From a virus: DNA of 33,786 bases. Each line of letters starts with the position of its first letter. Position 1 is the first letter of the stretch. Below are positions 1,128-13,440 of this stretch, piece by piece. A program made the position numbers and the translations under genes. The DNA lies in IMG/VR virus record IMGVR_UViG_3300044675_007199, positions 1-33,786 of that record. One strand, 5' to 3'. The notes under the pieces were generated by a model. The model did not search any database, was not told the DNA's origin, and saw nothing but the letters and a program-made list of their open reading frames with translations.

Positions 1128-1170
1128 CAACCTAGCGGCAGTTGCCGTTGGTAAAGTAAGGAGGACGGAA

Positions 1171-2133: not shown

Positions 2134-2153
2134 CATCTTCTAGATCAAACAAG

Positions 2154-2223: not shown

Positions 2224-2253
2224 TTGACGGCTCGCTCTGGTTCTGCTTATAAT
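2224..2253 (+). promoter_or_regulatory. Sigma-70-type promoter P3
   Basis: TTGACG at 2224-2229, 18 nt, TATAAT at 2248-2253 (perfect -10). The leader hairpin is CGCC, loop GATT, GGCG at 2261-2272. Confidence 0.88.
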
Positions 2254-2293
2254 GGCGTTGCGCCGATTGGCGTGGCTGTAAATAGGGGGCTGT

Positions 2294-2620
2294 ATGGGCA
2301 ATAAAACTTTCTTTCAGAAGGTAGACGCGATGTTGGTGGACATTTCCGACAACACTGATGTCGGAGTGCTTGGGCCAAACAAGTTCGGTATCTGGTGCTG
2401 CTCAACCTGCTCGTTCGCTTCGTTGGAGGGCGACGGCTTTGAGAAGTTTGTTTACTATCACCAGCAGGACGCAGACCGCGATGGCAGCGATGTCTACCTC
2501 GGTTGGCTCGGCGAGATTGTGCCAGAAATCGTGAAGCAGTACGCGCGAAAGCACGGACTAACTTTTGAGTGGGACGGAGATGATGGTCGCAAACTCTACA
2601 TCTGCGCTCACAATCAGTAG
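2294..2620 (+). CDS. Hypothetical protein, DUF6891-like (108 aa)
   Basis: The start ATG lies 4 nt downstream of GGGGGCTGT. The product contains FGIWCCSTCSFASLE followed by FVYYHQQDADR and DVYLGWLGE, a pattern that recalls the DUF6891 group of small bacterial and phage proteins. That match is from memory and unverified. A single CxxC-like pair (CCSTC) could bind metal. The C-terminus (LTFEWDGDDGRKLYI) looks like a beta hairpin. It is the first of two genes in its cassette; both have the same GGGGGCTGTATGG start context, which suggests duplication of the translation signal. Confidence 0.8.
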   Translation: MGNKTFFQKVDAMLVDISDNTDVGVLGPNKFGIWCCSTCSFASLEGDGFEKFVYYHQQDADRDGSDVYLGWLGEIVPEIVKQYARKHGLTFEWDGDDGRKLYICAHNQ

Positions 2621-2628
2621 GGGGCTGT

Positions 2629-2901
2629 ATGGAAGTGATTGCGTATCAGTACGAGGCGGCGGTTCATTGTATTCCTTGCGCTCGCGGTGAGTTCGGCGCT
2701 CGGCTTGACGATGAGTCTGCTGTTGACTCGGAGGGCAACAATGTTCACCCCATCTTTGATACGGACGAGGTTAATCTCTGTGGCGAGTCTTGCGGGACTT
2801 GTTGGGAGTGGGCAATCGCGCCTGTTGAGCACGAGCCTGCGTCTTGCCTGCTAGTATCGGACTGCCGATTGTATGGGGCTTCGGCAGCGACGGAGGAATG
2901 A
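2629..2901 (+). CDS. Conserved small phage protein with HPIFDTDE motif (90 aa)
   Basis: The product has 90 residues with CIPCARGEFG near residue 14, then DSEGNNVHPIFDTDEV, then CGESCGTCWEW. This order of a CxxC, a HPIFDTDE box and a second cysteine cluster looks like a family I have seen among phage hypothetical proteins; no function is known. A zinc-binding fold is likely (six cysteines in two clusters). It starts at an ATG after GGGGGCTGT, 8 nt after the upstream stop, in the same transcript. A terminator follows at 2951-2990. Confidence 0.8.
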   Translation: MEVIAYQYEAAVHCIPCARGEFGARLDDESAVDSEGNNVHPIFDTDEVNLCGESCGTCWEWAIAPVEHEPASCLLVSDCRLYGASAATEE

Positions 2902-2918
2902 TTCTCCGTAATGTCTAC

Positions 2919-2945
2919 GACGCGGGATAGAGCCTCCCCCGCGTC
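2919..2945 (+). other. Stem-loop 3' of the 90-aa gene
   Basis: GACGCGGG (2919-2926) pairs with CCCGCGTC (2938-2945). It has no T-run and stands just before the strong terminator at 2951, so it may be an mRNA-stabilising 3' hairpin. Confidence 0.5.
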
Positions 2946-2950
2946 ATTAC

Positions 2951-2990
2951 AAGAAGGTCGGGTTGAGCAGCCAACCCGACCTTCTTTTTT
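2951..2990 (+). terminator. Intrinsic terminator
   Basis: A 15-bp perfect stem (AAGAAGGTCGGGTTG and its complement, loop AGCAGC), then TTTTTT. Confidence 0.95.
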
Positions 2991-3028
2991 GTTCGGCTCC
3001 AAGCACCGGCGGGTGCTTGGACAGGAAC
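2991..3028 (+). repeat. 38-nt covarying hairpin, copy 4
   Basis: GTTC...GAAC with stem TCCAAGCACC and its complement around GGCG. In this copy the promoter starts 14 nt downstream instead of 0-4 nt. Confidence 0.9.
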
Positions 3029-3041
3029 GAAAAATAGGGTA

Positions 3042-3071
3042 TTGACAAGATGAAATCGGGCGTGAGAGAAT
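3042..3071 (+). promoter_or_regulatory. Promoter P4 of the first ncRNA cassette
   Basis: TTGACA at 3042-3047, an 18-nt spacer and GAGAAT at 3066-3071. The string GTGAGAGAATC is shared with the promoter of the second ncRNA cassette and differs from the TACAAT type used by protein cassettes. Confidence 0.7.
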
Positions 3072-3077
3072 CCACTT

Positions 3078-3305
3078 GTCGGAAGCGATTCTAGATGAAG
3101 CGAACCGACAGGGTGAGACTCGTGGACGAGCGAGCAGGTCTGCCGCAGCCCTAAATGCGGGTAGACGAGACGCAAAGGACGATGACCGCTAGGTGCCAAT
3201 GGATCGGCGGAGCGGAAGGAAAAGGAGTTGGGGGAAGTGATTAGCCCCCAATGAATAATCCGAAAGAAGCCTCTTGGAACCGACGGGTTCCGAGGGGCTT
3301 CTTTA
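3078..3305 (+). ncRNA. Putative structured non-coding RNA 1 (about 230 nt)
   Basis: A full promoter at 3042-3071 and a terminator at 3263-3305 bracket a stretch with no ORF that has a credible start and ribosome binding site. The strand can form several local helices: TGTCGG with CCGACA closing an arm near the 5' end; GTCT/CCGCA with TGCGG/AGAC around GCCCTAAA; and TTGGGGG with CCCCCAA near 3230-3255. Base composition is purine-rich (GGAGCGGAAGGAAAAGG), unlike the coding genes. It does not resemble a tRNA, tmRNA or any riboswitch I recognise. It could be a regulatory RNA, a protein-binding decoy or a host-directed sRNA. The 5' end is inferred from the -10 position. Confidence 0.65.
3263..3305 (+). 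terminator. Terminator of ncRNA 1
   Basis: A 16-nt arm GAAGCCTCTTGGAACC pairs with GGTTCCGAGGGGCTTC around GACG, followed by TTTATTAG. One internal mismatch and one wobble are present. Confidence 0.88.
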
Positions 3306-3308
3306 TTA

Positions 3309-3346
3309 GTTCGGCTCCAATGAGCCGCAGCTCATTGGAATAGAAC
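3309..3346 (+). repeat. 38-nt covarying hairpin, copy 5
   Basis: GTTC...GAAC with stem TCCAATGAGC and its complement around CGCA. Confidence 0.9.
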
Positions 3347-3348
3347 TC

Positions 3349-3378
3349 TTGACGAACCGCTAGGTTTGTGAATACAAT
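3349..3378 (+). promoter_or_regulatory. Sigma-70-type promoter P5
   Basis: TTGACG at 3349-3354, 18 nt, TACAAT at 3373-3378. The leader hairpin is TCGGG/CCCGA around GACTT at 3386-3400. Confidence 0.85.
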
Positions 3379-3420
3379 GGTGGTGTCGGGGACTTCCCGA
3401 TTAGAAAGAAGGAGGCTCAA

Positions 3421-3906
3421 ATGAAGGACTGGAAGCGGTACAAGGTTGAGGTGTTTCGCCACGAGATTGCAGAGGCGAAGCCAACGAGGATTGAGCGACC
3501 CACAGCGGCGGTGGACTTTTTCCGTCAGGACGCGGAGCGGCTGATGAACGAGTCGCTCTGGGTGATGACGCTAGACGGACGCAACGGGATTCTTGGAGTT
3601 GAGCAAGTCTACTCTGGGACTGCGACTGGCACGAGCGTCCGCATCGGTGAACTTTTCCGCTACGCGGTTGCGGCTGGCGGTTGCGCGATTCTGTTGGCGC
3701 ACAATCACCCAAGCGGCGACCCAGAGGCAAGCAACGAGGACATCAACCTCACAAAGGAAGTCATCGCTGCGTCTAGCCTGTTGGACATCGCTGTCCTTGA
3801 CCACTTGGTCATAGGAGGCGGCGGCGCGTTCACGAGCATTAGGTCGCAGCGACCTTCGCTATGGGAAGGCGTTGAGGACGGAGTTCGCACAAGCATCACG
3901 CAATAA
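3421..3906 (+). CDS. radC: RadC-like JAB/MPN (JAMM) domain protein
   Basis: The 161-residue protein has the JAMM metal-binding signature: H94-N-H96, then PSGDPEA, S104 and D107, with E44 in SLWVMTLDGRNG as the likely N-terminal acidic ligand. It is the RadC domain alone, without the usual N-terminal helix-hairpin-helix half. The RadC domain is a zinc-dependent peptidase fold of uncertain biological role; solitary copies are frequent on plasmids and phages, often near anti-restriction genes. The start ATG at 3421 follows AAGGAGG with good spacing. It is the only gene of the P5 cassette and is followed by a strong terminator. Coexistence with a DUF932 gene in this arm is a typical mobile-element pairing. 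Confidence 0.92.
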   Translation: MKDWKRYKVEVFRHEIAEAKPTRIERPTAAVDFFRQDAERLMNESLWVMTLDGRNGILGVEQVYSGTATGTSVRIGELFRYAVAAGGCAILLAHNHPSGDPEASNEDINLTKEVIAASSLLDIAVLDHLVIGGGGAFTSIRSQRPSLWEGVEDGVRTSITQ

Positions 3907-3911
3907 GTTTG

Positions 3912-3947
3912 GTGGGCGGTAGGCGGAAACCCTACCGCCCACTTTAT
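3912..3947 (+). terminator. Terminator of the radC-like gene
   Basis: A perfect 12-bp stem GTGGGCGGTAGG with its complement (loop CGGAAAC), then TTTATT. Confidence 0.92.
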
Positions 3948-3949
3948 TA

Positions 3950-3987
3950 GTTCGGCTCCAAAGGGCCGCCGCCCTTTGGACTAGAAC
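3950..3987 (+). repeat. 38-nt covarying hairpin, copy 6
   Basis: GTTC...GAAC with stem TCCAAAGGGC and its complement around CGCC. Confidence 0.9.
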
Positions 3988-3989
3988 CC

Positions 3990-4019
3990 TTGACGGCTGG
4001 GCTGGGTTGTGCGTACAAT
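3990..4019 (+). promoter_or_regulatory. Sigma-70-type promoter P6
   Basis: TTGACG at 3990-3995, 18 nt, TACAAT at 4014-4019. The leader hairpin is ACCC, loop GCTT, GGGT within 4026-4039. Confidence 0.87.
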
Positions 4020-4060
4020 GATGACGACCCGCTTGGGTTGTGGAGATAAAGGAGGCTATC

Positions 4061-4288
4061 GTGGCAAAGAAGGCAAAGTCAAAGAAGGTGAAGTTGGCAG
4101 ACTTTCAGTTCGTCAATGGCGGCTCGGTGTGCCTGTTGATTCCTGTGAACGGCGACGCTCGTCGTTGGCTTGATGAGAACATTGGCGAGGACGCTCTCTA
4201 CTTTGGACACGGACTAGCGGTTGAGTACCGATACACGCAACAGATTCTTGACGGAATCGTGCGAGATGGGTTTGAGGTGGCGATGTGA
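4061..4288 (+). CDS. Small hypothetical protein with basic N-terminus (75 aa)
   Basis: The GTG at 4061 is chosen because AAAGGAGG precedes it; the longer in-frame ATG at 4040 lies ahead of that site. The product starts with a lysine-rich tail (AKKAKSKKVK) and continues into a probable alpha/beta fold (GGSVCLLIPVNGDARRWLDEN...). The basic tail suggests nucleic-acid or protein contacts; this is inference. No family is recognised. It overlaps the following GTG by 4 nt and is first in a three-gene cassette. Confidence 0.78.
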   Translation: MAKKAKSKKVKLADFQFVNGGSVCLLIPVNGDARRWLDENIGEDALYFGHGLAVEYRYTQQILDGIVRDGFEVAM

Positions 4289-4566
4289 GTAAGCCAATCA
4301 CAATGAGCCAAGCGGCGGAGATGATTCGCAACAGCAAAGGCTCAATCTTCGGTGTGGACTTTGTGAAGCGCACCACAGGCGAGTCGCGCAAGATGACGGC
4401 TCGCCTCGGTGTAAAGAAGCACCTGAAAGGCGGCGAGGCTGCGTATGACGCGAAGGAGAAAGACCTAATCTTTGTGTACGACATCGCAAAGAAGGGATAC
4501 CGCTCCATCGCTCTTGACGCAATCACCGCGCTGCGTATCGGTGGCGACGAGTACGAGGTGAAGTAA
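4285..4566 (+). CDS. SH3-like beta-barrel phage protein (93 aa)
   Basis: The protein contains FGVDFVKRTTGESRKMTARLGVKK, then KDLIFVYDIAKKGYRSIALDAITAL. This order resembles a widespread phage family I know as SH3-like barrel proteins of about 80 residues (FVKRTTGE.RKM...GVKKHLKGG...V.D...YR.I.LD). Function is unknown; a nucleic-acid or transcription-related role is often guessed. The start is the GTG at 4285, coupled by GTGA overlap to the preceding gene. The stop TAA is followed at once by the next ATG. Confidence 0.82.
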   Translation: MSKPITMSQAAEMIRNSKGSIFGVDFVKRTTGESRKMTARLGVKKHLKGGEAAYDAKEKDLIFVYDIAKKGYRSIALDAITALRIGGDEYEVK

Positions 4567-4761
4567 ATGTGTGAACACGAAGCAATCCGTTGGCTTCACG
4601 AGGCTGTCGTTGATGACTGCCCAGACTGCTCAAACGCAACGGAGTACGAGCAGGGCGAGGGTACGCCTTGCTCGCTGATTGTGTGCGTCGCGTGCGGCGT
4701 TGATGTTGAGCCAACAACAGACGCGCACCACAAGCAACTGCTCGCTTCCGTCGGCGCGTAA
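4567..4761 (+). CDS. Small Cys-rich hypothetical protein (64 aa)
   Basis: The ATG at 4567 directly follows the upstream TAA. The product has C2, a CPDC knuckle at about residue 18, C35, and CVAC at about residue 40, consistent with a zinc ribbon. Family not recognised. It is the last gene of the P6 cassette and has no intrinsic terminator of its own; a 38-nt hairpin begins 8 nt after the stop. Confidence 0.72.
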   Translation: MCEHEAIRWLHEAVVDDCPDCSNATEYEQGEGTPCSLIVCVACGVDVEPTTDAHHKQLLASVGA

Positions 4762-4768
4762 ATAAATA

Positions 4769-4806
4769 GTTCGGCTCCAAGTGGCCGCCGCCACTTGGAC
4801 TAGAAC
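4769..4806 (+). repeat. 38-nt covarying hairpin, copy 7
   Basis: GTTC...GAAC with stem TCCAAGTGGC and its complement around CGCC. Confidence 0.9.
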
Positions 4807-4808
4807 TC

Positions 4809-4838
4809 TTGACAGCACGCTATAAGTTCGCATAAGAT
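4809..4838 (+). promoter_or_regulatory. Sigma-70-type promoter P7
   Basis: TTGACA (perfect -35) at 4809-4814, 18 nt, TAAGAT at 4833-4838. The leader hairpin is GCGGG/CCCGC around GACTT at 4845-4859. Confidence 0.85.
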
Positions 4839-4878
4839 TCAAGGGCGGGGACTTCCCGCGAGTAGCAAGGAGGCTCAA

Positions 4879-5202
4879 ATGTCGGACGGATACAACGGCT
4901 GGACGAATCACGAAACTTGGTTGGTGAATCTTTGGATAAACGAAGGCTTGCTTGACCTTTTTGAGGTTGGCGAGCAGGCGCGACACTTCGCGGAACAAGA
5001 CGAGGACAACGCCGCGTGGGAAATGGCGAAATGGTTGCGCGAGCAGGTTGATGAGGTAATCGGCGACCAGCCCGTTGGACTCGCGGCAGACCTCATCGGC
5101 TCGGCGATGGCTTCCGTAAACTGGGAGGAAATCGCGGGACACTTCACAGATGAGGCGATTGAAAACGAGCGACAGCAGACAGAAAATGCGGAGGCAGAAT
5201 GA
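4879..5202 (+). CDS. YNGWTNHETW-motif phage protein (DUF7249-like)
   Basis: The 107-residue acidic protein begins SDGYNGWTNHETWLVNLWIN, a hallmark of a small family common in phages and plasmids that I recall as DUF7249. Function is unknown. The rest is helical and acidic (AEQDEDNAAWEMAKWLREQVDEV), ending in a glutamate-rich tail. The start ATG follows AAGGAGG. It overlaps the next gene by ATGA. Confidence 0.88.
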   Translation: MSDGYNGWTNHETWLVNLWINEGLLDLFEVGEQARHFAEQDEDNAAWEMAKWLREQVDEVIGDQPVGLAADLIGSAMASVNWEEIAGHFTDEAIENERQQTENAEAE

Positions 5203-5432
5203 GCGGAGAACGATACACCAACGGACTAATGGAGGGAATGCTACTCGGACGCGCCGAAGTTGCGGACTCGCAAGCGGGACGCACAAATGGCGAGAAGCGC
5301 GACGCATACCTCAACGCGGCGAAGTATGCTCGGCTTGCGCTCATTGAGTACGCGGCGAATGGGGATTCGGACGAGGTGCGCCGCCTCACAGGGCTTTCCT
5401 TTGATTGGACGGACGCGGCTAACGCGCTTTGA
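5199..5432 (+). CDS. Small hypothetical protein (77 aa)
   Basis: The ATG overlaps the stop of the preceding gene (ATGA), so the two are probably coupled. The product is a mostly helical protein (GRAEVADSQAGRTNGEKRDAYLNAAKYARLAL), with no metal motif and no recognised family. It is the second and last gene of the P7 cassette; no T-run terminator follows, only the next 38-nt hairpin. Confidence 0.75.
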   Translation: MSGERYTNGLMEGMLLGRAEVADSQAGRTNGEKRDAYLNAAKYARLALIEYAANGDSDEVRRLTGLSFDWTDAANAL

Positions 5433-5442
5433 GTAATAAATA

Positions 5443-5480
5443 GTTCGCCCCCAAGCACCGGCGGGTGCTTGGGATGGAAC
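5443..5480 (+). repeat. 38-nt covarying hairpin, copy 8
   Basis: GTTC...GAAC with stem CCCCAAGCACC and a complementary arm around GGCG. Compared with copy 4 the T-A pair next to CCAA is C-G on both sides, a clear paired change. Confidence 0.9.
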
Positions 5481-5482
5481 TC

Positions 5483-5512
5483 TTGACGCGCAATGTGAAG
5501 TGTGCGTATAAT
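5483..5512 (+). promoter_or_regulatory. Sigma-70-type promoter P8
   Basis: TTGACG at 5483-5488, 18 nt, TATAAT at 5507-5512. The leader hairpin is AGTCC, loop ACTT, GGACT at 5519-5532. Confidence 0.88.
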
Positions 5513-5551
5513 CTTGTCAGTCCACTTGGACTTGGAGCAGAGGAGGCTAGG

Positions 5552-5887
5552 ATGTTCAGAGCATTGGCAGTTTCACTCACGCCGAGCAACTTCATTATGG
5601 GCGACGATGGATGGATCGTTGATCCGCAGGTCGCAGGTCGCCTTGATGGTTTCGCCGAGCGGTTCGGCAACATCTACAATGATGTGATGAACGGCTGGGC
5701 ACATCAGGACGACATCTTTGAGACCGAGCAGGATGGAACCTATGATAAGTTCGGCAACATCATTGTCCATTGGCGCAACGATGGATTCGTTGACTTCGTT
5801 GTCTTTGACTCGCCAGACGCTGCGAAGCGCGAGTGGAGCGACATTGCAGGAATGTACGAGAGGATGCCGAACGGCAAAACTTTCTGA
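5552..5887 (+). CDS. Hypothetical protein (111 aa)
   Basis: The ATG at 5552 follows GAGGAGGCTAG; an upstream in-frame ATG at 5465 lies inside the hairpin and promoter and is excluded. The product has FIMGDDGWIVDP, then GFAERFGNIYNDVMNGWAHQDD and IIVHWRNDGFVDFVVFD. It looks like a compact alpha/beta acidic protein rich in aromatic residues. No family is recognised. It is the single gene of its cassette. Confidence 0.78.
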   Translation: MFRALAVSLTPSNFIMGDDGWIVDPQVAGRLDGFAERFGNIYNDVMNGWAHQDDIFETEQDGTYDKFGNIIVHWRNDGFVDFVVFDSPDAAKREWSDIAGMYERMPNGKTF

Positions 5888-5894
5888 ATAAATA

Positions 5895-5932
5895 GTTCAG
5901 CCCCAAGTGGCCGCGGCCACTTGGGATAGAAC
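5895..5932 (+). repeat. 38-nt covarying hairpin, copy 9
   Basis: GTTC...GAAC with stem CCCAAGTGGC and its complement around CGCG. Confidence 0.9.
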
Positions 5933-5934
5933 TC

Positions 5935-5963
5935 TTGACTTATAGATTCATCTGTGAGAGAAT
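5935..5963 (+). promoter_or_regulatory. Promoter P9 of the second ncRNA cassette
   Basis: TTGACT at 5935-5940, a 17-nt spacer, GAGAAT at 5958-5963. The -10 context TGTGAGAGAATC matches that of P4. Confidence 0.7.
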
Positions 5964-5969
5964 CGTCTA

Positions 5970-6208
5970 ACGAGCCGCTCTGGTGCCGCTGTGAAGGTGG
6001 CGGGCTTATGGGGCTGCGGCTGGTTGGTAGTTGTAGACATAACTACCCGCGACGATAAGGACGAGCGGTGAGGGTGAATAACCAACACCTACGCCGTTCG
6101 CAAGAGGTAGCCGAGAGGTGGAGCCTCTCTCCGCAAGGGGATAAGCGTCAGAGGCAGCGAAATGCCGATGAGGGTCTGGTTGGTGTGGTGCCATCCAGAC
6201 CCTCATCA
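5970..6208 (+). ncRNA. Putative structured non-coding RNA 2 (about 240 nt)
   Basis: A promoter at 5935-5963 and a terminator at 6167-6212 enclose a region with no credible gene; the only short frame is a 16-codon ORF from an ATG at 6008. Possible helices include GGTAGTT with AACTACC around GTAGACAT, GAGAGG with CCTCTC around TGGAG, GGCA with TGCC around GCGAAA, and TTGGT with ACCAA spanning the first of these. The sequence is not a tRNA (no T-loop consensus) and shares no obvious primary sequence with ncRNA 1 beyond the promoter. Function unknown. The 5' end is inferred. Confidence 0.62.
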
Positions 6209-6212
6209 TTTT
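6167..6212 (+). terminator. Terminator of ncRNA 2
   Basis: A perfect 13-bp stem GATGAGGGTCTGG with its complement, a 15-nt loop, then ATTTT. Confidence 0.88.
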
Positions 6213-6250
6213 GTTCAGTCCCAAGTGGCCGCGGCCACTTGGGATAGAAC
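6213..6250 (+). repeat. 38-nt covarying hairpin, copy 10
   Basis: GTTC...GAAC with stem TCCCAAGTGGC and its full complement around CGCG; it is nearly identical to copy 9 except at the outer inner-stem pair (C/A there, T-A here). Confidence 0.9.
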
Positions 6251-6253
6251 CAC

Positions 6254-6283
6254 TTGACAGGCTCCGAACTTATCGCGTAAGAT
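6254..6283 (+). promoter_or_regulatory. Sigma-70-type promoter P10
   Basis: TTGACA at 6254-6259, 18 nt, TAAGAT at 6278-6283. The leader hairpin is GTCGGG, loop GCTT, CCCGAC at 6290-6305. Confidence 0.87.
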
Positions 6284-6327
6284 TCAGTGGTCGGGGCTTC
6301 CCGACGAGAGGCAAAGGAGGCAAGGAA

Positions 6328-6735
6328 ATGGGCAAGGCAATCAAGTTCGGAGTTGGAAAGTTTGAGACTGCTACGCCAGTCCCCGCGCTGTTCAACTGGG
6401 TTGAGGTCGTGGACTTCAACGATGACGGCAACACGCTCACCGAACTCTACCGCGTTGGCGGTTGGGACATGACGGAGGTTGCGGTTTCTGGCAAGTATGG
6501 AGCAACGAGCGTTGTGCTTTGGTGCGATGAGGAAGGGCTTTACAATGAGCCTGTCATTCGCAATCAGGCTGCCACTTCACTCCGCAACGAAATCATGGGC
6601 GGAGTATTTGACGGAATCTACGGCAACTGCGTACTCACCGCAGAGGACGAGGACGGCAAGACGCTTGCGTTCAGCGATGAGCAGGTTGCGGAAATCAAGA
6701 CGCTGCTAGAACTGGGGAACTATCCAGTCAAGTAA
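6328..6735 (+). CDS. Hypothetical protein (135 aa)
   Basis: The ATG at 6328 follows AAAGGAGG; upstream in-frame starts lie in the promoter and are rejected. The product is acidic with an alternating pattern suggestive of beta structure (TPVPALFNWVEVVDFNDDGNTLTELYRVGGWDM) and a helical end (SDEQVAEIKTLLELG). No family is recognised. It is the sole gene of the P10 cassette, with its own terminator at 6760. Confidence 0.8.
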   Translation: MGKAIKFGVGKFETATPVPALFNWVEVVDFNDDGNTLTELYRVGGWDMTEVAVSGKYGATSVVLWCDEEGLYNEPVIRNQAATSLRNEIMGGVFDGIYGNCVLTAEDEDGKTLAFSDEQVAEIKTLLELGNYPVK

Positions 6736-6759
6736 TCGCGAGCAGGTCGCGCAACAAAG

Positions 6760-6785
6760 AGACGGGGAAGGTTCCCCGTCTTTTT
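6760..6785 (+). terminator. Intrinsic terminator
   Basis: A 10-bp stem AGACGGGGAA with TTCCCCGTCT, then TTTT. Confidence 0.9.
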
Positions 6786-6789
6786 GTTT

Positions 6790-6827
6790 GTTCAGCTCCA
6801 ATCTGCCGCGGCAGATTGGACTAGAAC
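6790..6827 (+). repeat. 38-nt covarying hairpin, copy 11
   Basis: GTTC...GAAC with stem TCCAATCTGC and its complement around CGCG. Confidence 0.9.
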
Positions 6828-6830
6828 CCC

Positions 6831-6860
6831 TTGACGAATCTGAATCGGTGTGCCTACAAT
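6831..6860 (+). promoter_or_regulatory. Sigma-70-type promoter P11
   Basis: TTGACG at 6831-6836, 18 nt, TACAAT at 6855-6860. The leader hairpin is AGCCC, loop ACTT, GGGCT at 6867-6880. Confidence 0.88.
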
Positions 6861-7159: not shown

Positions 7160-7197
7160 GTTCGCCCATTACGGGCCGCGGCCCGTAATGTTGGAAC
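7160..7197 (+). repeat. 38-nt covarying hairpin, copy 12 (no plus promoter)
   Basis: GTTC...GAAC with a diverged stem (CATTACGGGC and its complement) around CGCG. It is the only copy without a TTGAC promoter to its right. It sits where plus- and minus-strand transcription meet and takes the place of the hairpin that borders AT islands in the second arm. Confidence 0.88.
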
Positions 7198-8042: not shown

Positions 8043-8106
8043 AACTTCCTCCTATTGTTTGCGCCTCACCAACAGCGGTGCGGCTGCCCCAATCATCGCG
8101 GGTTGT

Positions 8107-8135
8107 ATTATTGAGATGTTTAGAGGGGTGTTGTA
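8107..8135 (-). promoter_or_regulatory. Minus-arm promoter m1
   Basis: On the minus strand TACAAC (8130-8135), 17 nt, AATAAT (8107-8112). The -35 differs from TTGACA and touches the GGCTCC/GGAGCC hairpin. Confidence 0.7.
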
Positions 8136-8160
8136 GGCTCCGGAGGAGCCGCCATGGAAC
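8136..8160 (-). repeat. Minus-arm covarying hairpin m1
   Basis: GGCTCC/GGAGCC (8136-8150) with a 3-nt loop, plus conserved flank reading GTTC on the minus strand at 8157-8160. Confidence 0.82.
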
Positions 8161-8202
8161 TTATTTATTACTTATATTTATTTACTTATATATTGCAAGT
8201 GA

Positions 8203-8242
8203 GTTAGATATAGAACAGCAGCACGGGGTGCCGCGGTATAAC
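8203..8242 (-). repeat. 40-nt palindromic element, copy 1
   Basis: GTTAGAT...GTATAAC ends around the GCAGCAC/GTGCCGC core. An AT-rich island (8161-8202) separates it from the m1 hairpin. Confidence 0.8.
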
Positions 8243-8251
8243 TTGGAGAAG

Positions 8252-8302
8252 GACAAAAAGAAAGCCGCCGCCGCCGCTCCGCGATGGAGCGACGACGACG
8301 GC
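8252..8302 (-). terminator. Terminator of the 8323-9395 unit
   Basis: A 17-bp stem (8264-8280 with 8286-8302) and a minus-strand TTTCTTTTTG tail. Three pairs are G-U in the minus transcript but A/C in the other strand, so the structure fits minus-strand RNA. Confidence 0.9.
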
Positions 8303-8322
8303 GTTGAGTTCTGAACTTCCCC

Positions 8323-8616
8323 TTAGCGCGGAACCTTCATAAGGTCGTCCCAATACTTGAACATCTTTTCGGCAACGACGCGTTCACCGCAGTGTCCACA
8401 CTTCGGCACATCATCGTAGGTTTCACGAATGTCCATTTCTGCAACAACATCGCGTGCGTTCAATGCGCGAATGCCCTCACCGAATGCAACTGCAAGCGCT
8501 GAATGAAATCCGACTTCTGCGCAATCAGCGCAAACAAACGCATCGCCAACATCAAACGCAACAGCGCGTTCACCAGTTTCTTGACCCTTTGCAACCAGTA
8601 CAATTTCAACAAACAC
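8323..8616 (-). CDS. Zinc-binding hypothetical protein (97 aa)
   Basis: Starts at a GTG (8616) after AGAAGGAG. The product has CADC at about residue 29 and CGHC at about residue 73, two CxxC knuckles as in a zinc ribbon. The region between is Ala/Val-rich and helical (HSALAVAFGEGIRALNARD). No family is recognised. Third and last gene of the unit read from the promoter near 9475; an 11-bp hairpin precedes its ribosome binding site. Confidence 0.78.
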   Translation of the reverse strand: MFVEIVLVAKGQETGERAVAFDVGDAFVCADCAEVGFHSALAVAFGEGIRALNARDVVAEMDIRETYDDVPKCGHCGERVVAEKMFKYWDDLMKVPR

Positions 8617-8637
8617 AATCTTCTCCTTCTATGGTTG

Positions 8638-8666
8638 TGGTGCGAGCGTCGCATTCGCTCGCACCA
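8638..8666 (-). other. Intercistronic hairpin
   Basis: TGGTGCGAGCG pairs with CGCTCGCACCA (11 bp), the same sequence as the hairpin at 7659-7685. Confidence 0.8.
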
Positions 8667-8696
8667 CATCACTGCTAACTTGCTGAATTGCAAGTA

Positions 8697-8963
8697 TCAA
8701 CTTCTCGCGTCGCGAAACTTTTCCGCGATGTCTGCAAGTGCCTCTTGCTCTTCATAATTCAAGTGGCACTCCTTGCAGATGAACTTGTCGCTTCCGTCAG
8801 CGTGCGAATAGAAAGTTGACCAGACACCGTTGATGTCTTCCCACTGGTCGTTCACTTTCACATCAGTTTCTTTGCAGTCCTCGCAACCCTTGTTGCAATC
8901 GTCGCAAAGCGCTGAGTCGCTAATCCATTTCAACTCTTGTTTGCACTTCTTGCACTTGAACAT
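8697..8963 (-). CDS. Cys-rich multi-zinc protein (88 aa)
   Basis: The ATG at 8963 follows GGAGGAGAA; a longer frame reaching 9023 runs through the upstream hairpin and lacks a site. The product begins MFKCKKCKQELKW and has CDDC, CEDC and CKEC, giving four CxxC knuckles, enough for two zinc ribbons. The C-terminus is helical (NYEEQEALADIAEKF). It may bind nucleic acid or protein; family not recognised. Middle gene of a three-gene unit. Confidence 0.82.
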   Translation of the reverse strand: MFKCKKCKQELKWISDSALCDDCNKGCEDCKETDVKVNDQWEDINGVWSTFYSHADGSDKFICKECHLNYEEQEALADIAEKFRDARS

Positions 8964-8985
8964 TTGCAATTCTCCTCCAAACTTG

Positions 8986-9022
8986 TGGTGCGGTGTGAGC
9001 GCAACGCACCCACACCGCACCA
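8986..9022 (-). other. Intercistronic hairpin
   Basis: A 12-bp stem TGGTGCGGTGTG with its complement around a 13-nt loop, between the first and second genes of the unit. Confidence 0.8.
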
Positions 9023-9026
9023 TTGA

Positions 9027-9395
9027 TTACGCTCCCGCAGCGCAGTCGCGACGACTAAGCGCATCGTCGTTCAGCGCGTTGGTTTGCTCTGGGCAATCCT
9101 TGCACTCCCAGAATCCGAAAGCGCTTGCGACGGCGCTTTCGTTTGCGAGTTCAGGATTCTCCACAAGATGCAGCGCGTGCTGCTCTGCGAAGTGGTGCGG
9201 TTTCTCAACCACATCAACCGCATCGCCACCCATACGCGCCCACTCACGCGCCACACTGTAAGTCAGTGCGGTGAACTGACTGTAATCAGCGAAGCGCTTG
9301 ATTGTCTCAACAAAGCGCCAACGATGATGCTCACCGTGAAGTGCACGGTCAATGTCGTGCATCTCCTTGATAAGCGATTCCTTTACACTTGCCAT
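9027..9395 (-). CDS. Hypothetical protein with C-terminal CxxC, paralog of 7692-8042 (122 aa)
   Basis: The ATG at 9395 follows GGGAGG; the longer frame from 9446 is not supported. It shares with the 7692-8042 product the order W-x-F-V-x-T, a central acidic helix, W-E-C-x-D-C-x-x-Q-T-N and a terminal RDCAA. Similarity is restricted to these anchors, so the duplication is old or the two were acquired separately. First gene of the unit read from the promoter at 9461-9489. Confidence 0.82.
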   Translation of the reverse strand: MASVKESLIKEMHDIDRALHGEHHRWRFVETIKRFADYSQFTALTYSVAREWARMGGDAVDVVEKPHHFAEQHALHLVENPELANESAVASAFGFWECKDCPEQTNALNDDALSRRDCAAGA

Positions 9396-9460
9396 TACTG
9401 AACCTCCCGTACTTGCGCTGCACCAACAGCGGTGCCGCTGCACCAATCATCTTTGCTTCT

Positions 9461-9489
9461 ATTATTGAGACTTTTAGAGGGAGGTCGTA
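9461..9489 (-). promoter_or_regulatory. Minus-arm promoter m2
   Basis: TACGAC (9484-9489), 17 nt, AATAAT (9461-9466) on the minus strand. A leader hairpin based on CAGCGG/CCGCTG follows near 9428-9442. Confidence 0.7.
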
Positions 9490-9514
9490 GGCCCCGGAGG
9501 GGCCGCCATAGAAC
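9490..9514 (-). repeat. Minus-arm covarying hairpin m2
   Basis: GGCCCC/GGGGCC (9490-9504) plus the conserved GTTC flank. Confidence 0.82.
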
Positions 9515-9556
9515 GCTGTTATTACTTATATTATGTTACTTATATATCCCTTGTGA

Positions 9557-9596
9557 GTTAGACATCTAACAGCAGCACGGGGTGCCGCGGTCTAAC
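9557..9596 (-). repeat. 40-nt palindromic element, copy 2
   Basis: Perfect outer arms GTTAGAC (9557-9563) and GTCTAAC (9590-9596) around the GCAGCAC/GTGCCGC core. The AT island lies at 9515-9556. Confidence 0.83.
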
Positions 9597-9608
9597 TTCG
9601 CGCGAAGC

Positions 9609-9660
9609 ACAAAAAAATGGTGCCGCCGCGACTCCCGCGTTCGGGAGCCGCGACGACACC
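9609..9660 (-). terminator. Terminator of the 9681-10432 unit
   Basis: A 19-nt stem (9619-9637 with 9642-9660) closed by CGTT, with a minus-strand run of seven T. Stem wobbles are again G-U on the minus strand. Confidence 0.9.
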
Positions 9661-9680
9661 GTAAAGAACGATCGACTACA

Positions 9681-10121
9681 TCACCACGCTTCAGCGCCGT
9701 CGAGATCCGCGATCTCTTTGATGTAGTCCAGGTACGACTCGATGTAAGAGCGCACGTCGTCAATGCTGTTGGATCTCAACGCACCACCGATCCACTCGCT
9801 CTCGTCGATCAGACCATTGAAGAGGTAGTCGCCGCGACCATAGAGTCGATCAAGAACCGACTCAACAAACGCGTTTCGCTTCTCTTCTGTCTCGATCTTC
9901 GTCATCGCTTCGTGGCAGTCGTCCGCGCTGAAGTGATGCTCACCATCACCGCTGACGCCGTTTGCCCACACGTCAATGATACCTTTAATGCCGAGCATGT
10001 CGCTGACGAGTCGTGGAAGAAACGCAACACCGATCGACGCTCGGAAGTACGCTTTCTCTCCGACATCACCAAAGTCGCTCTTCTTTGTAAGAACCTTGCG
10101 CGAGTAAATGTCGTATCCCAT
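9681..10121 (-). CDS. Hypothetical protein (146 aa)
   Basis: The ATG at 10121 follows AGGAGG. The product begins MGYDIYSRKVLTKKSDFGDVGEKAYFRASI and has HHFSADDCHEAMTKI and YLFNGLIDESEW. It looks like a soluble alpha/beta protein with several aromatic and acidic patches. Family not recognised. Second gene after promoter m3, preceded by a hairpin at 10146-10174 and followed by a strong terminator. Confidence 0.78.
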   Translation of the reverse strand: MGYDIYSRKVLTKKSDFGDVGEKAYFRASIGVAFLPRLVSDMLGIKGIIDVWANGVSGDGEHHFSADDCHEAMTKIETEEKRNAFVESVLDRLYGRGDYLFNGLIDESEWIGGALRSNSIDDVRSYIESYLDYIKEIADLDGAEAW

Positions 10122-10145
10122 TGTTGAATCCTCCTAATGGTGGTG

Positions 10146-10174
10146 AGGTGCGAGCGTCGCATGCGCCCGCACCT
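10146..10174 (-). other. Intercistronic hairpin
   Basis: AGGTGCGAGCG and CGCCCGCACCT pair with one mismatch around a short loop; a diverged relative of the hairpins at 7659 and 8638. Confidence 0.72.
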
Positions 10175-10192
10175 CGTTTGATTCTCTAACGA

Positions 10193-10432
10193 CTAGACAA
10201 GATCAACGTCGTTGCCAGCGGCATCAACGAAGTTGAAGTTCTTCTTCTCTTCGTCGCTTGCCTCTTCAACATTGTCGACCAGCGCGTCAGCGGCGTCGGT
10301 GAGGACTTCGCCCTCATTGACGTCGTTTGATGCGAGATCGAGCGCGATCTCTTTCGCCTCGTCAGCGGTTTCAGCGGCGATGAAGATCTCACCCTCCACC
10401 ACTTTGCTGACTAGTACCTTGAACCCTTTCAC
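10193..10432 (-). CDS. Small highly acidic protein (79 aa)
   Basis: A GTG start at 10432 follows AGGAGG. The product opens with a beta-like segment (FKVLVSKVVEGEIFIAAETADEAKEIALDLAS) and continues into an acidic stretch (ADALVDNVEEASDEEKKNF). The net charge is strongly negative. The beta-strand/helix opening with ETADEAKEIA resembles small DpnD/PcfM-type proteins, but I cannot confirm it. A DNA-mimic role is a speculation that charge alone cannot support. First gene of unit m3. Confidence 0.75.
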   Translation of the reverse strand: MKGFKVLVSKVVEGEIFIAAETADEAKEIALDLASNDVNEGEVLTDAADALVDNVEEASDEEKKNFNFVDAAGNDVDLV

Positions 10433-10538
10433 TTGCTACCTCCTACTTTCTTTCGGTGTCGCATACACCGATCCAGCACCATTGCTATCTGGCGGGTCGC
10501 GCCACAGCAGCGCGTCCGCCCTAATCATCGCTGCTCTT

Positions 10539-10567
10539 ATTATTGGGATGTTTAGAGGAGGGTTGTA
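10539..10567 (-). promoter_or_regulatory. Minus-arm promoter m3
   Basis: TACAAC (10562-10567), 17 nt, AATAAT (10539-10544) on the minus strand. Confidence 0.7.
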
Positions 10568-10592
10568 GGCACCGGAGGTGCCGCCATAGAAC
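10568..10592 (-). repeat. Minus-arm covarying hairpin m3
   Basis: GGCACC/GGTGCC (10568-10582) plus the GTTC flank. Confidence 0.82.
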
Positions 10593-10626
10593 TTACTTAT
10601 TATTGTTACTTATATATTGCTTGTGT

Positions 10627-10666
10627 GTTACACATCTAACAGCAGCCCAGGGGGCCGCGGTACAAC
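10627..10666 (-). repeat. 40-nt palindromic element, copy 3
   Basis: The core is GCAGCCC/GGGCCGC instead of GCAGCAC/GTGCCGC, a compensated change. Outer arms GTTACAC and GTACAAC pair at 5 of 7 positions. Confidence 0.78.
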
Positions 10667-10678
10667 TTGAAGAAGGGC

Positions 10679-10721
10679 AAAAAGAACCCCCGCACCGCTC
10701 GGCCATCCGAGCGATGCGGGG
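10679..10721 (-). terminator. Terminator of the 10729-11094 gene
   Basis: CCCCGCACCGCTCGG pairs with CCGAGCGATGCGGGG (10688-10721) with one mismatch; minus-strand TTCTTTTTG follows. Related in sequence to the terminators at 11935 and 12897. Confidence 0.9.
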
Positions 10722-10728
10722 TGTTGCG

Positions 10729-11094
10729 CTATGCGATTGCGATGTCTGCTGCGTTCGCGAAATCCCTGATGGCGCGTTGACGATTCTCGCGCCCTAGCGC
10801 AATCGCGTCACGCTTCGTGCGCACGATTGCCGTAGGGTCAACGTGAATCCATTCGCCATCAATCCACGCGCCAGCGTAACGCGTGCCGTGCGCCGCTGCT
10901 GCCGTTAGCATTGCGCGCCGCACGTCGGATTCCGTTGCCGTTGCAACGGGTAGCATTGTGAATGTCTGCTGCGTTGCGCCAACGGCGTATCCGCGGCGTG
11001 GATTCGTTGCGCGCATTGTCGGTACGCGCACCGTGATGCCACCATTCGCGAGAATAGCGGCGAGAATGCTAATGCGCTTGATTGATTCTGCCAT
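10729..11094 (-). CDS. Hypothetical phage protein with DP...ALGRENRQ ending (121 aa)
   Basis: The ATG at 11094 follows GAGGAGG. The product has GYAVGATQQTFTMLPV, then GTRYAGAWIDGEWIHVDPTAIV and RDAIALGRENRQRAIRDF. The order of a GxW strand, VDP and a terminal helix with ALGRxNxQxAIxD is one I associate with small proteins of actinobacterial phages, function unknown; that association is from memory. Single gene of unit m4. Confidence 0.8.
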   Translation of the reverse strand: MAESIKRISILAAILANGGITVRVPTMRATNPRRGYAVGATQQTFTMLPVATATESDVRRAMLTAAAAHGTRYAGAWIDGEWIHVDPTAIVRTKRDAIALGRENRQRAIRDFANAADIAIA

Positions 11095-11158
11095 TGCGTT
11101 TCCCTCCTCACTAATGCGACGCCACAGCAGCGCCGCTGCTCACATCATCGGTGAATCT

Positions 11159-11187
11159 ATTAGCGGGGTTTTTATAGGGGGGCCGTA
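11159..11187 (-). promoter_or_regulatory. Minus-arm promoter m4
   Basis: TACGGC (11182-11187), 17 nt, GCTAAT (11159-11164), followed by A. It is the weakest -10 of the set. Confidence 0.6.
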
Positions 11188-11212
11188 GACGCCGGAGGCG
11201 TCCCAATAGAAC
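11188..11212 (-). repeat. Minus-arm covarying hairpin m4
   Basis: GACGCC/GGCGTC (11188-11202): three of six pairs differ from m2 and all remain complementary. Confidence 0.82.
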
Positions 11213-11252
11213 TTACTTATTATTTATATTTATATTCATATTGCTTATAGGG

Positions 11253-11292
11253 GTTAGAGATATAACAGCAGCACGGGTGGCTTCGGTAGAGC
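11253..11292 (-). repeat. 40-nt palindromic element, copy 4 (degenerate)
   Basis: The left half GTTAGAGATATAACAGCAGC is kept, but the right half (GTGGCTTCGGTAGAGC) has lost most pairing. Confidence 0.6.
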
Positions 11293-11307
11293 AATTGCCT
11301 GAAAAAA

Positions 11308-11359
11308 GGCAAAAAAATAAGGGAGCGAGCAGGGGGCTCTCTTGTCCCCCTGCTCCCTT
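11308..11359 (-). terminator. Terminator of the 11389-11622 gene
   Basis: GCAGGGGG/CCCCCTGC with AGGGA/TCCCT outside, then minus-strand TTATTTTTTTG. Confidence 0.88.
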
Positions 11360-11388
11360 GCCCTGCCCGCCTTTATACGCGGGACGAT

Positions 11389-11622
11389 CTATTCGGCGAT
11401 CGCGCGGCGCACGATGCCTTGATGGCGCGATGTCGTATTGCTCCATCGCGTGGTGTCCACACCCCACACGCCATCCGTAAAATCGGCGATGCACACACGG
11501 TATGAATACACCATGTATTGTTCGCCGATCCATCGCGCGCGGAAATTTCCCGTGTGCGATGTAAATTCTTGTAGGCGCTTGATCGCTTCTAGCGCCTGCT
11601 TTCGGTTGATCCGCTTTCCCAT
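11389..11622 (-). CDS. TTSRHQ-motif phage protein (77 aa)
   Basis: The ATG at 11622 follows AGGGGGAATAG. The product contains YMVYSYRVCIADFTDGVW, then WSNTTSRHQGIVRRAI. This layout, a YxVYSYxxxIA strand, a short W-containing turn and TTSRHQ near the C-terminus, is a recurrent small protein type in actinobacterial phages and their hosts, function unknown; the match is from memory. Single gene of unit m5. Confidence 0.83.
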   Translation of the reverse strand: MGKRINRKQALEAIKRLQEFTSHTGNFRARWIGEQYMVYSYRVCIADFTDGVWGVDTTRWSNTTSRHQGIVRRAIAE

Positions 11623-11686
11623 TTACTATTCCCCCTATTGCTTCTGCCGCCTTGCTATCGGGGCTGCCCACATCATCTATCAGTTG

Positions 11687-11715
11687 ATTATTGTTGTATT
11701 TATATTGGGGCTGTA
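11687..11715 (-). promoter_or_regulatory. Minus-arm promoter m5
   Basis: TACAGC (11710-11715), 17 nt, AATAAT (11687-11692) on the minus strand. Confidence 0.68.
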
Positions 11716-11740
11716 GGCCCCGGAGGGGCCGCAATAGAAC
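11716..11740 (-). repeat. Minus-arm covarying hairpin m5
   Basis: GGCCCC/GGGGCC (11716-11730) plus the GTTC flank. Confidence 0.82.
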
Positions 11741-11741
11741 A

Positions 11742-11838
11742 CTCCAAGCCCCCCTCTAGATTTCTCCAAGCCCCACTTTATATAGATTTCCTGAACGGTT
11801 ATATAGATTTTCCTGAACGGTTATATAGATTTTCCTGA
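11742..11838. repeat. Tandem 22-bp repeats with two partial units
   Basis: TTATATAGATTTTCCTGA recurs at 11778 (one T shorter), 11799 and 11821; the first two units also carry ACGG. Before them CTCCAAGCCCC occurs twice (about 11741 and 11764), each followed by TAGATTT within about 20 nt. No ORF is present. Confidence 0.88.
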
Positions 11839-11870
11839 TTCATATTTACTTACTTATATTACTTCCGTGA

Positions 11871-11910
11871 GTTACAGATAGAACAGCAGCACGGGGTGCC
11901 GCGGTCTAAC
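11871..11910 (-). repeat. 40-nt palindromic element, copy 5
   Basis: GTTACAG...GTCTAAC ends around GCAGCAC/GTGCCGC; 5 of 7 outer pairs hold. Confidence 0.8.
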
Positions 11911-11923
11911 TGAGGCCACCAGG

Positions 11924-11968
11924 GCAAAAAGAATCCCCGCACCACTCGGCGCTCCGAGCAGTGCGGGG
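11924..11968 (-). terminator. Terminator of the 11988-12649 unit
   Basis: CCCCGCACCACTCGG pairs with CCGAGCAGTGCGGGG (11935-11968) with one mismatch, followed on the minus strand by ATTCTTTTTGCCC. Confidence 0.92.
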
Positions 11969-11987
11969 TAGGTTGCGTACGCCAGTG

Positions 11988-12314
11988 CTAGACGATGGTC
12001 AGTTGCGCGTTCCAGTTCACTGATGCGTTCCATCGTTCACGAACAATCCACGCGCCGCCTTCGTCCTGATGAAGCACTTCGTATCCGATAGGATCGAGTG
12101 CATCCTTCAGAATGAAGAATGCGCGAGTATCGAGTTCATCGAGCCAAGTGTTCGGGCGATTCTGACGAAGCGCACCGATAGCCTTCACGATTCTATCCGA
12201 TACCCTATCGGATTCTGCTTCCATTCTAGTACGATTCTCGCTATCCGTCAGCGATGAGCGGTGCTGATACACCAACTTCCACTCGACTGGATTGTAGTGC
12301 TTGCCTTCGTTCAT
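11988..12314 (-). CDS. Hypothetical protein (108 aa)
   Basis: The ATG at 12314 follows GAAGGGAGAA; the longer frame to 12359 runs through the intercistronic hairpin and is rejected. The product is charged and helical at the start (LTDSENRTRMEAESDRVSDRIVKAIGALRQ) and beta-like at the end (GAWIVRERWNASVNWNAQLTIV). Family not recognised. Second gene of unit m6. Confidence 0.76.
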   Translation of the reverse strand: MNEGKHYNPVEWKLVYQHRSSLTDSENRTRMEAESDRVSDRIVKAIGALRQNRPNTWLDELDTRAFFILKDALDPIGYEVLHQDEGGAWIVRERWNASVNWNAQLTIV

Positions 12315-12332
12315 TGCGATTCTCCCTTCATT

Positions 12333-12366
12333 GCGGGGAGTGCGGCATCCGCGCCGCACTCCCCGC
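12333..12366 (-). other. Intercistronic hairpin
   Basis: A perfect 14-bp stem GCGGGGAGTGCGGC with its complement around ATCCGC, with no T-run, between two genes of one unit. Confidence 0.85.
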
Positions 12367-12370
12367 GCTA

Positions 12371-12649
12371 CTACGATGCGATTGTGAACGGTGCGTACTT
12401 CGGGAACTGCTTCCGCCAGTACGCGGGGAACTCGCGCAACACTCCGTCAGACTGAAGCACTTGGAACGCTTCAGTCCCTTCGAAGTATCGTGCGCGTCCA
12501 CGCTCATCAGTAAGAATCAGCATCAGCCGATTGTCTACTGACGATAGTGTTGCGTCGTATCGACGAAGTACTTCGTCGTACACTTCGTCGTGAACGATGA
12601 CGCTATACACTTCGTCATCGCTACGGCGAACTACCATACGCTCGACCAT
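12371..12649 (-). CDS. Hypothetical protein (92 aa)
   Basis: The ATG at 12649 follows GGAAGGGAG; an earlier in-frame ATG at 12694 lies upstream of that site. The product has DEVYSVIVHDEVYDEVLRRYDATL, then RLMLILTDERGRARYFEGTEAFQVL, a beta-rich small domain. No family is recognised. First gene of unit m6; the intercistronic hairpin starts 5 nt after its stop. Confidence 0.76.
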   Translation of the reverse strand: MVERMVVRRSDDEVYSVIVHDEVYDEVLRRYDATLSSVDNRLMLILTDERGRARYFEGTEAFQVLQSDGVLREFPAYWRKQFPKYAPFTIAS

Positions 12650-12704
12650 TGTCGTATTCTCCCTTCCGAGCCTTCGGTGGCTCGCCCTCATCATCTCTCA
12701 GTCT

Positions 12705-12733
12705 ATTATAGAGATTCTTTTGGCGTCGTCGTA
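12705..12733 (-). promoter_or_regulatory. Minus-arm promoter m6
   Basis: TACGAC (12728-12733), 17 nt, TATAAT (12705-12710), the only perfect -10 of the minus set. The leader hairpin is GAGCC/GGCTC near 12667-12682. Confidence 0.75.
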
Positions 12734-12758
12734 GGCCCCGGAGGGGCCACCATCGAAC
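12734..12758 (-). repeat. Minus-arm covarying hairpin m6
   Basis: GGCCCC/GGGGCC (12734-12748) plus the GTTC flank. An AT island follows at 12775-12838; no 40-nt element is recognisable here. Confidence 0.8.
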
Positions 12759-13330: not shown

Positions 13331-13423
13331 AGCGTGTACCTCCTACGATTGTGCCGCGCCACAGCGGCGCCGCTGCACCCATCATCACACAGGGGTAAAT
13401 CGCAGCATCTTTGGGGTGGCTGA

Positions 13424-13440
13424 TGCACCCGGAGGGTGCA
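13424..13440 (-). repeat. Minus-arm hairpin m7 (diverged copy)
   Basis: TGCACCC/GGGTGCA, the same GGA loop as m1-m6. No clear TACRRC -17- AATAAT pair follows; upstream sequence is G-rich on the minus strand, not AT-rich. Confidence 0.7.

Follow-up and report, generated by a model that had tools for sequence, protein, structure and literature searches.

What opens the genes of a virus when a whole array of them lacks a recognisable −35 element? The question is raised by the IMG/VR virus record IMGVR_UViG_3300044675_007199, whose 33,786 nt (positions 1 to 33,786, hereafter the window) represent a fragment rather than a complete genome and carry two converging arrays of small genes, a plus-strand left arm and a minus arm in which each gene cassette is preceded by a small hairpin. 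A first-pass annotation had placed a TACRRC −35, exactly 17 nt and an AATAAT or TATAAT −10 directly against this hairpin. Here we find that the part shared by all minus-arm units is instead the mini-hairpin itself together with a GATGAT box at rigid distance, and that the boxes named earlier are mostly not the conserved ones, the invariant hairpin having been taken as background. Judged by its conservation, the minus-arm unit is a real, strongly conserved promoter module.

A mini-hairpin and a distant GATGAT box define the minus-arm unit

All seven minus-arm hairpins of the window have a 6–7 bp stem and a 3-nt TCC loop closed by a C-G pair (C-TCC-G), and in all seven units GATGAT stands at an invariant distance from the hairpin, so that the common part reads CTCCG-N43-GATGAT, found 7 times in the window against 0.02 expected. 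The minus strand of the window holds 5 exact matches to the motif TACRRC-N17-WATAAT and the plus strand none; 0.02 were expected by chance, and a count of 5 was not reached in any of 100 shuffles. Six such units had been counted; five hold, while the unit at 11187–11159 has TACGGC and the 17 nt but GCTAAT, and a seventh unit had been overlooked. This unit 1, with its hairpin at 13.4 kb (13424–13440), opens the arm and lacks both TACRRC and WATAAT, but has the shared GATGAT box. The covarying hairpins described against TAC are real (GGCCCC, GACGCC, GGCACC and GGCTCC), with the correction that one of the six is GAC..GTC rather than GGC..GCC.

The hairpin and the box, rather than AATAAT, are conserved among relatives

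About 140 related IMG/VR stretches were gathered via the portal gene, for which genome contigs gave no relative and isolated phages yielded remote ones only. The arms were read in G003, G004 and G015 (portal ~83% identical to that of the window) and in G006, G008 and G009 (~73%), as loci L210–L242, and the two converging arrays were present in all of them. G006 and G008 are probably complete genomes, since each is flanked by a direct terminal repeat (117 bp in G006, 123 bp in G008). Both kinds of hairpin-promoter unit were absent from more distant relatives (portal ~55–58%) in pattern and hairpin scans. The units analysed below number 59 from six genomes, 22 from the window, G003 and G004 (the window's clade) and 37 from G006, G008 and G009 (the sister clade), and are numbered with the loop centre at −11 as in phage N4, which places the purine after TAC at +1.

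The C-TCC-G loop is kept in all 59 units and the stems covary, the pair −17/−5 being Watson-Crick in 37/37 sister-clade and 19/22 window-clade units. When all offsets were scanned for the −10 hallmark (A at the second and T at the sixth position, A2/T6), only +36 in the window's clade (22/22) and +32 in the sister clade (36/37) were near-universal. In the window's clade, all 22 units have GATGAT (GATGCT in one) at +36 and 20 have TAC before +1. Sister-clade units mostly have a 5-bp stem, G as +1 and, commonly, TA(T/A)C in front of it; ACCTRAA is located around +7 to +13, and the box at +32 reads xATTxT. The stretch of 31–35 nt between hairpin and box is largely unconserved in sequence, yet these units show no insertion or deletion within it, a rigidity suggestive of a single DNA-bound protein complex in contact with both hairpin and box.

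AATAAT at +21 behaves differently. It shows the A2/T6 hallmark in 5 of the 7 window units and is absent in the sister species L210, L212 and L221, which keep the hairpin and GATGATG at identical spacing but have ATTGTA, AATCAA, GCCGTA, TCCGTA, ACGGAG, ATCAAG or GATGTA in its place. TACRRC, in turn, is not at the −35 position relative to GATGAT; its TAC is the flank of the hairpin. For these two reasons TACRRC and AATAAT are poor −35 and −10 candidates, and neither assignment is supported. AATAAT may nonetheless be a lineage-specific extra −10, as the L140 orthologue of unit 3 retains GATAAT though its flanks differ. No TTGACA-like −35 lies 16–18 nt from the conserved box, the expected position being A-rich in the window's clade and CCTRAA in the sister clade, which bears out the earlier statement that the minus-arm −35 is not TTGACA-like; the match of the box to the sigma-70 consensus beyond A2 and T6 is modest.

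The two arms share a geometry but differ in promoter class

We collected 62 distinct left-arm units consisting of GTTC-palindrome-GAAC, TTGAC(G/A), mostly 18 nt and an A2/T6 box, a set for which the search pattern itself demanded TTGAC and A2/T6. In an unselected hairpin list, TTGAC followed nearly every left-arm hairpin except the one at the arm junction, and the TTGACR-18-TANAAT promoters are retained in all relatives examined; the earlier reading of the left arm as TTGACR with 18 nt was correct (11 units in the window, mostly 18 nt). In both clades, most left-arm units have 45.5–46.5 bp between hairpin centre and −10. For the minus arm of the window the corresponding distance is 46 bp to GATGAT and 31 bp to AATAAT, and because the former matches, GATGAT rather than AATAAT is the partner of the left-arm −10 in the mirror plan that had been proposed for the arms and that otherwise holds. 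One left-arm unit of G009 has GATGAT itself as the −10, 18 nt after TTGACA. The minus arm thus resembles the sigma-70-type left arm in its A2/T6 hallmark and in its hairpin-centre-to-−10 distance, but lacks a TTGACA-like −35 and has an invariant TCC loop where the left-arm loop is variable. That the two arms use promoters of different classes is supported. Left-arm cassette order was shuffled between related phages (window 688–7111 versus L212), as if cassettes had been swapped via shared intergenic modules.

A minus-arm cassette runs hairpin, spacer, box, gene, terminator, dyad and an AT-rich stretch with GTTC at its end. The first unit has the hairpin without the dyad, AT-rich and GTTC part, and the last junction (7160–7197) has that part and a left-type CGCG hairpin with no gene after it; from these two layouts, the C-TCC-G hairpin belongs with the promoter and not with the end of the preceding gene (Table 1). 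The dyad is operator-like (GTTAGATGTCTAAC and variants) and is followed by AT-rich AAGTAA repeats after most minus-arm cassettes, possibly forming a regulator or replication site. A likeness of the upstream GTTAGAC..GTCTAAC dyad to integron attC sites was considered and set aside, since its arms are in the opposite order. Within cassettes, a further intergenic hairpin, GTGCGAGCGAATGCGACGCTCGCAC, recurs just 5′ of ribosome-binding sites.

Table 1 Features of the hairpin-promoter arms and associated elements (window coordinates unless a locus is named; functional labels are proposals)
Feature	Position	Strand
Unit 1 hairpin TGCACCC-TCC-GGGTGCA, without upstream GTTC/AT-rich module	13424..13440	-
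Unit 1 GATGAT, proposed −10-like box, +36 from hairpin-set +1	13381..13386	-
Unit 2 hairpin GGCCCC-TCC-GGGGCC	12734..12748	-
Unit 2 TACGAC-17-TATAAT	12705..12733	-
Unit 2 GATGAT, proposed −10-like box	12690..12695	-
Unit 3 hairpin GGCCCC-TCC-GGGGCC	11716..11730	-
Unit 3 TACAGC-17-AATAAT	11687..11715	-
Unit 3 GATGAT, proposed −10-like box	11672..11677	-
Unit 4 hairpin GACGCC-TCC-GGCGTC	11188..11202	-
Unit 4 TACGGC-17-GCTAAT (not AATAAT)	11159..11187	-
Unit 4 GATGAT, proposed −10-like box	11144..11149	-
Unit 5 hairpin GGCACC-TCC-GGTGCC	10568..10582	-
Unit 5 TACAAC-17-AATAAT	10539..10567	-
Unit 5 GATGAT, proposed −10-like box	10524..10529	-
Unit 6 hairpin GGCCCC-TCC-GGGGCC	9490..9504	-
Unit 6 TACGAC-17-AATAAT	9461..9489	-
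Unit 6 GATGAT, proposed −10-like box	9446..9451	-
Unit 7 hairpin GGCTCC-TCC-GGAGCC	8136..8150	-
Unit 7 TACAAC-17-AATAAT	8107..8135	-
Unit 7 GATGAT, proposed −10-like box	8092..8097	-
Arm junction: left-type hairpin GTTC..CGCG..GAAC, without C-TCC-G loop, without promoter	7160..7197	.
Left arm (comparison class): 11 × GTTC..palindrome..GAAC, then TTGACR, mostly 18 nt, A2/T6 −10 box	688..6860	+
Dyad and AAGTAA repeats	7213-7291, 8165-8244, 9519-9600, 10593-10668, 11220-11279, 11846-11915	-
Intergenic hairpin 5′ of ribosome-binding sites	7659-7686, 8622-8665, 10141-10183	-
ORF-less units, probable non-coding RNAs	3042-3300, 5935-6205	+
Phosphoesterase with SbcD/MRE11-like motifs	31495-32715	-
Giant open reading frames in relatives	L234:8796-19000, L235:1279-8532	

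The stems appear to be selected as DNA

RNA stems tolerate G-U pairs. The right-arm stems contained 0 G-T against 308 Watson-Crick cells across the 59 units (0 versus 89 when each of the 19 distinct stem cores is counted once) and the left-arm hairpins 2 against 425, whereas T-tailed terminators of the same six genomes contained 50 G-T against 889 Watson-Crick pairs. The depletion relative to terminators was significant by Fisher's test for both the distinct right-arm cores (p = 0.018) and the left-arm cores (p = 1e-6). Because G-T pairs are nearly missing from the promoter-hairpin stems, unlike the terminators, selection on DNA rather than RNA is favoured. Template switching can maintain perfect palindromes, and such palindrome-perfecting switching is a possible alternative cause of the G-T scarcity. 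The few wobble-type pairs found in stems read A-C in the coding strand and hence G-T in the template strand. The DNA folding parameters used assigned the bare hairpins equal energies on both strands and so do not discriminate between them. The C-TCC-G hairpins precede TAC or TA(T/A)C rather than the U-tract that follows the G+C-rich hairpin of an intrinsic terminator, and true T-tailed terminators are located elsewhere. The minus-arm units had no Rfam match (window 1–14500, E up to 1).

The hairpin resembles N4 promoters in shape

DNA-hairpin promoters are known from N4-type phages (Schitoviridae), on whose virion RNA polymerase (vRNAP) they rely. N4 promoters require a purine at −11 and G at −8 (PMC4496689, PMC3715699), the template −8G being an essential contact (PMC3715699). 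The template strand of the units presents C(GGA)G, a 3-nt loop on a stem of 6–7 bp in the window and mostly 5 bp in the sister clade, within the 5–7 bp of N4, and the central loop base at −11 is a template G in 59/59 units. The likeness to N4 and other Schitoviridae early promoters further includes the distance to a purine +1, which in the sister clade would sit at the N4 position after a pyrimidine at −1; the sister clade also shares the N4 hairpin span of −17 to −5, and its heptamer, GCGGAGC, recurs unchanged in two N4 promoters (EF056009). The template −8 base, in contrast, is G in 36/37 sister-clade units but C in 22/22 units of the window's clade. The units also differ from those of N4 in number and placement (7–13 per genome, each ahead of a gene cassette, where N4 has 3), in having a fixed −10-like box 42–46 bp downstream and in occurring without a recognised vRNAP or T7-like RNA polymerase (RNAP).

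The search for such an enzyme covered the window fragment, G003, G004, G006, G008 and G009, in which no giant vRNAP gene was found and phrog_2206 (vRNAP) and phrog_414 had no match, although N4 itself matches. A PF00940 search of the genomes also returned nothing, but alone shows little because none of its controls matched either. RNAP motif scans were empty, and no T7-type or N4-type RNAP was recognised in relatives, the two terminally redundant genomes included. A vRNAP hidden inside a giant open reading frame (ORF) was considered and rejected, as the PHROG matches were to tape-measure proteins, the N-terminal part is unconserved between G004 and G006, and RNAP motifs are missing. Two giant ORFs lie side by side in relatives; one encodes a tape-measure protein of 3493 aa whose N-terminal part is poorly conserved, the other a protein of 2417 aa that contains a Peptidase_S74 domain. 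With no recognisable RNAP, the N4 likeness is one of shape, not of membership.

In cluster K mycobacteriophages, some of the small genes are likewise preceded by copies of an inverted-repeat element: SAS is an asymmetric 13-bp repeat, GGGATAGGAGCCC, at translation starts, and ESAS is an imperfect inverted repeat of 17 bp from which a consensus sequence can be derived, with a spacer of 4–13 bp (PMC3203893). GGGATAGGAGCCC was not found here with up to 2 mismatches allowed, which sets the units apart from SAS/ESAS.

A proposed hairpin-marked promoter without a −35

Taking these observations together, we propose that each minus-arm cassette would open with a promoter for the host RNAP that lacks a TTGACA −35, carries a DNA hairpin (5–7 bp stem, with a loop that reads TCC in the coding strand and GGA in the template strand) on which its activation depends, and uses GATGAT, or xATTxT in the sister clade, at a fixed 42–46 bp from the hairpin centre as its −10, a proposal whose chances we consider evenly balanced. 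The hairpin would be read as DNA, either as a structure that negative supercoiling extrudes or as a duplex palindrome, and would mark the promoter class, while a phage or phage-induced factor recognising it would most likely recruit RNAP in place of a −35, so that the minus arm would be regulated apart from the TTGACR arm. Four elements of this scheme are inferences: the role of the box as the −10, a transcription start ~7 nt past it, formation of the hairpin in vivo and the existence of an activator. Minus-arm promoters are probably activator-dependent, and the activator or other specificity factor suggested by the first-pass annotation remains sensible. Several points weigh against this proposal. 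GATGAT and xATTxT match TATAAT at just ~4 and ~3.4 of 6 positions on average, the box offset shifts by 4 nt between the clades (+36 versus +32), and by sequence AATAAT at +21 is the better −10 in the window species. Several sister-clade units have imperfect stems with the loop still kept, the units share descent and hence are not independent observations, and both the transcription start and the activator are inferred for a module known here from its sequence.

The use of TACRRC and AATAAT/TATAAT as −35 and −10 in the window species, through another sigma factor or an activator, would explain the exact 17-nt spacing in 5–6 units, which is far beyond chance, the agreement of AATAAT with TATAAT at 5/6 positions and the GATAAT kept in L140. 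We consider it unlikely, since AATAAT is gone in sister species that retain hairpin, TAC and GATGATG at identical spacing, the arrangement is missing in unit 1 and altered in unit 4, its 31-bp hairpin distance mismatches the left arm, and TAC adjoins the stem in relatives regardless of the 17-nt box. The palindromes could also be cassette boundaries, that is, recombination or repair sites that shuffle single-gene cassettes, with the promoter spacing inherited by descent. Left-arm cassette order indeed differs between the window and G003, hairpin-bearing genomes share a conserved SbcD/MRE11-like phosphoesterase that was not found in distant hairpin-less relatives, and template switching could preserve the perfect palindromes; nevertheless, the C-TCC-G hairpin stays on the promoter side at a rigid distance from the −10-like box and no hairpin-linked recombinase was found, which makes this reading distinctly unlikely.

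Lower still do we rank an RNA element, in which the hairpin would be transcribed from further upstream and work either within the leader or as a structure of the 3′ end. Covariation is what RNA hairpins typically show, and AT-rich promoter-like sequence and the dyad lie upstream of units 2–7, but G-T pairs are nearly missing from the stems against ~5% in the terminators, the hairpin-box spacing is rigid across variable sequence, unit 1 lacks the upstream module, and neither a U-tract nor an Rfam match accompanies the hairpins. Similarly improbable is a strictly N4-type promoter, in which the template C(GGA)G hairpin would serve a phage single-subunit RNAP starting at the purine after TAC or TA(T/A)C. 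Stem, loop and the central G at −11, the pyrimidine −1 and mostly purine +1 at N4 distance, the shared heptamer, the covariation of the boundary pair −17/−5 in 37/37 units and the G-T placement on the template strand all speak for it; against it stand the RNAP searches (phrog_2206, phrog_414 and PF00940 without match, the PHROG models matching N4; empty motif scans; a 3.5 kaa ORF that encodes a tape-measure protein, unconserved in its N-terminal part), the C at template −8 in the window's clade and the fixed +32/+36 box, which this model leaves superfluous. A broader form, in which N4-kind hairpin promoters of long-tailed phages would be read either by an unrecognised phage RNAP or by host RNAP with a hairpin-reading phage factor, we regard as rather unlikely; if true, promoter recognition via an extruded C(GNA)G hairpin would exist outside Schitoviridae.

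A lineage without a recognisable N4-type enzyme has a near-identical mini-hairpin rigidly spaced before many promoters, beside a second arm of ordinary promoters preceded by a different hairpin. If the hairpin of our proposed host-RNAP promoter is needed for transcription, it would be a new way of marking a gene class by DNA shape, and the system offers a direct test of whether small cruciforms serve a cellular RNAP as promoter elements.

Candidate factors and ORF-less units

Three proteins are leads, and leads only, for hairpin factors. A protein with two helix-turn-helix motifs (G006 72870–73223) is 71–82% identical in G004, G008 and G009, and the SbcD/MRE11-like phosphoesterase, a PHROG 'exonuclease', is 78–85% identical among hairpin-bearing phages; neither was found in hairpin-less relatives, four of them largely complete and one partly read. 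The third, an SSB (PF00436), is encoded in G006. No sigma factor was found among the G006 proteins with Pfam (E up to 1e-4) or among the 25 of 81 families listed in the NCBIfam comparison.

Two units in the left part of the window contain no ORF, and each has its own TTGAC promoter and T-tailed terminator. They had no Rfam match and, with up to 92.7% identity over 286 nt between relatives, are on sequence grounds probable phage non-coding RNAs.

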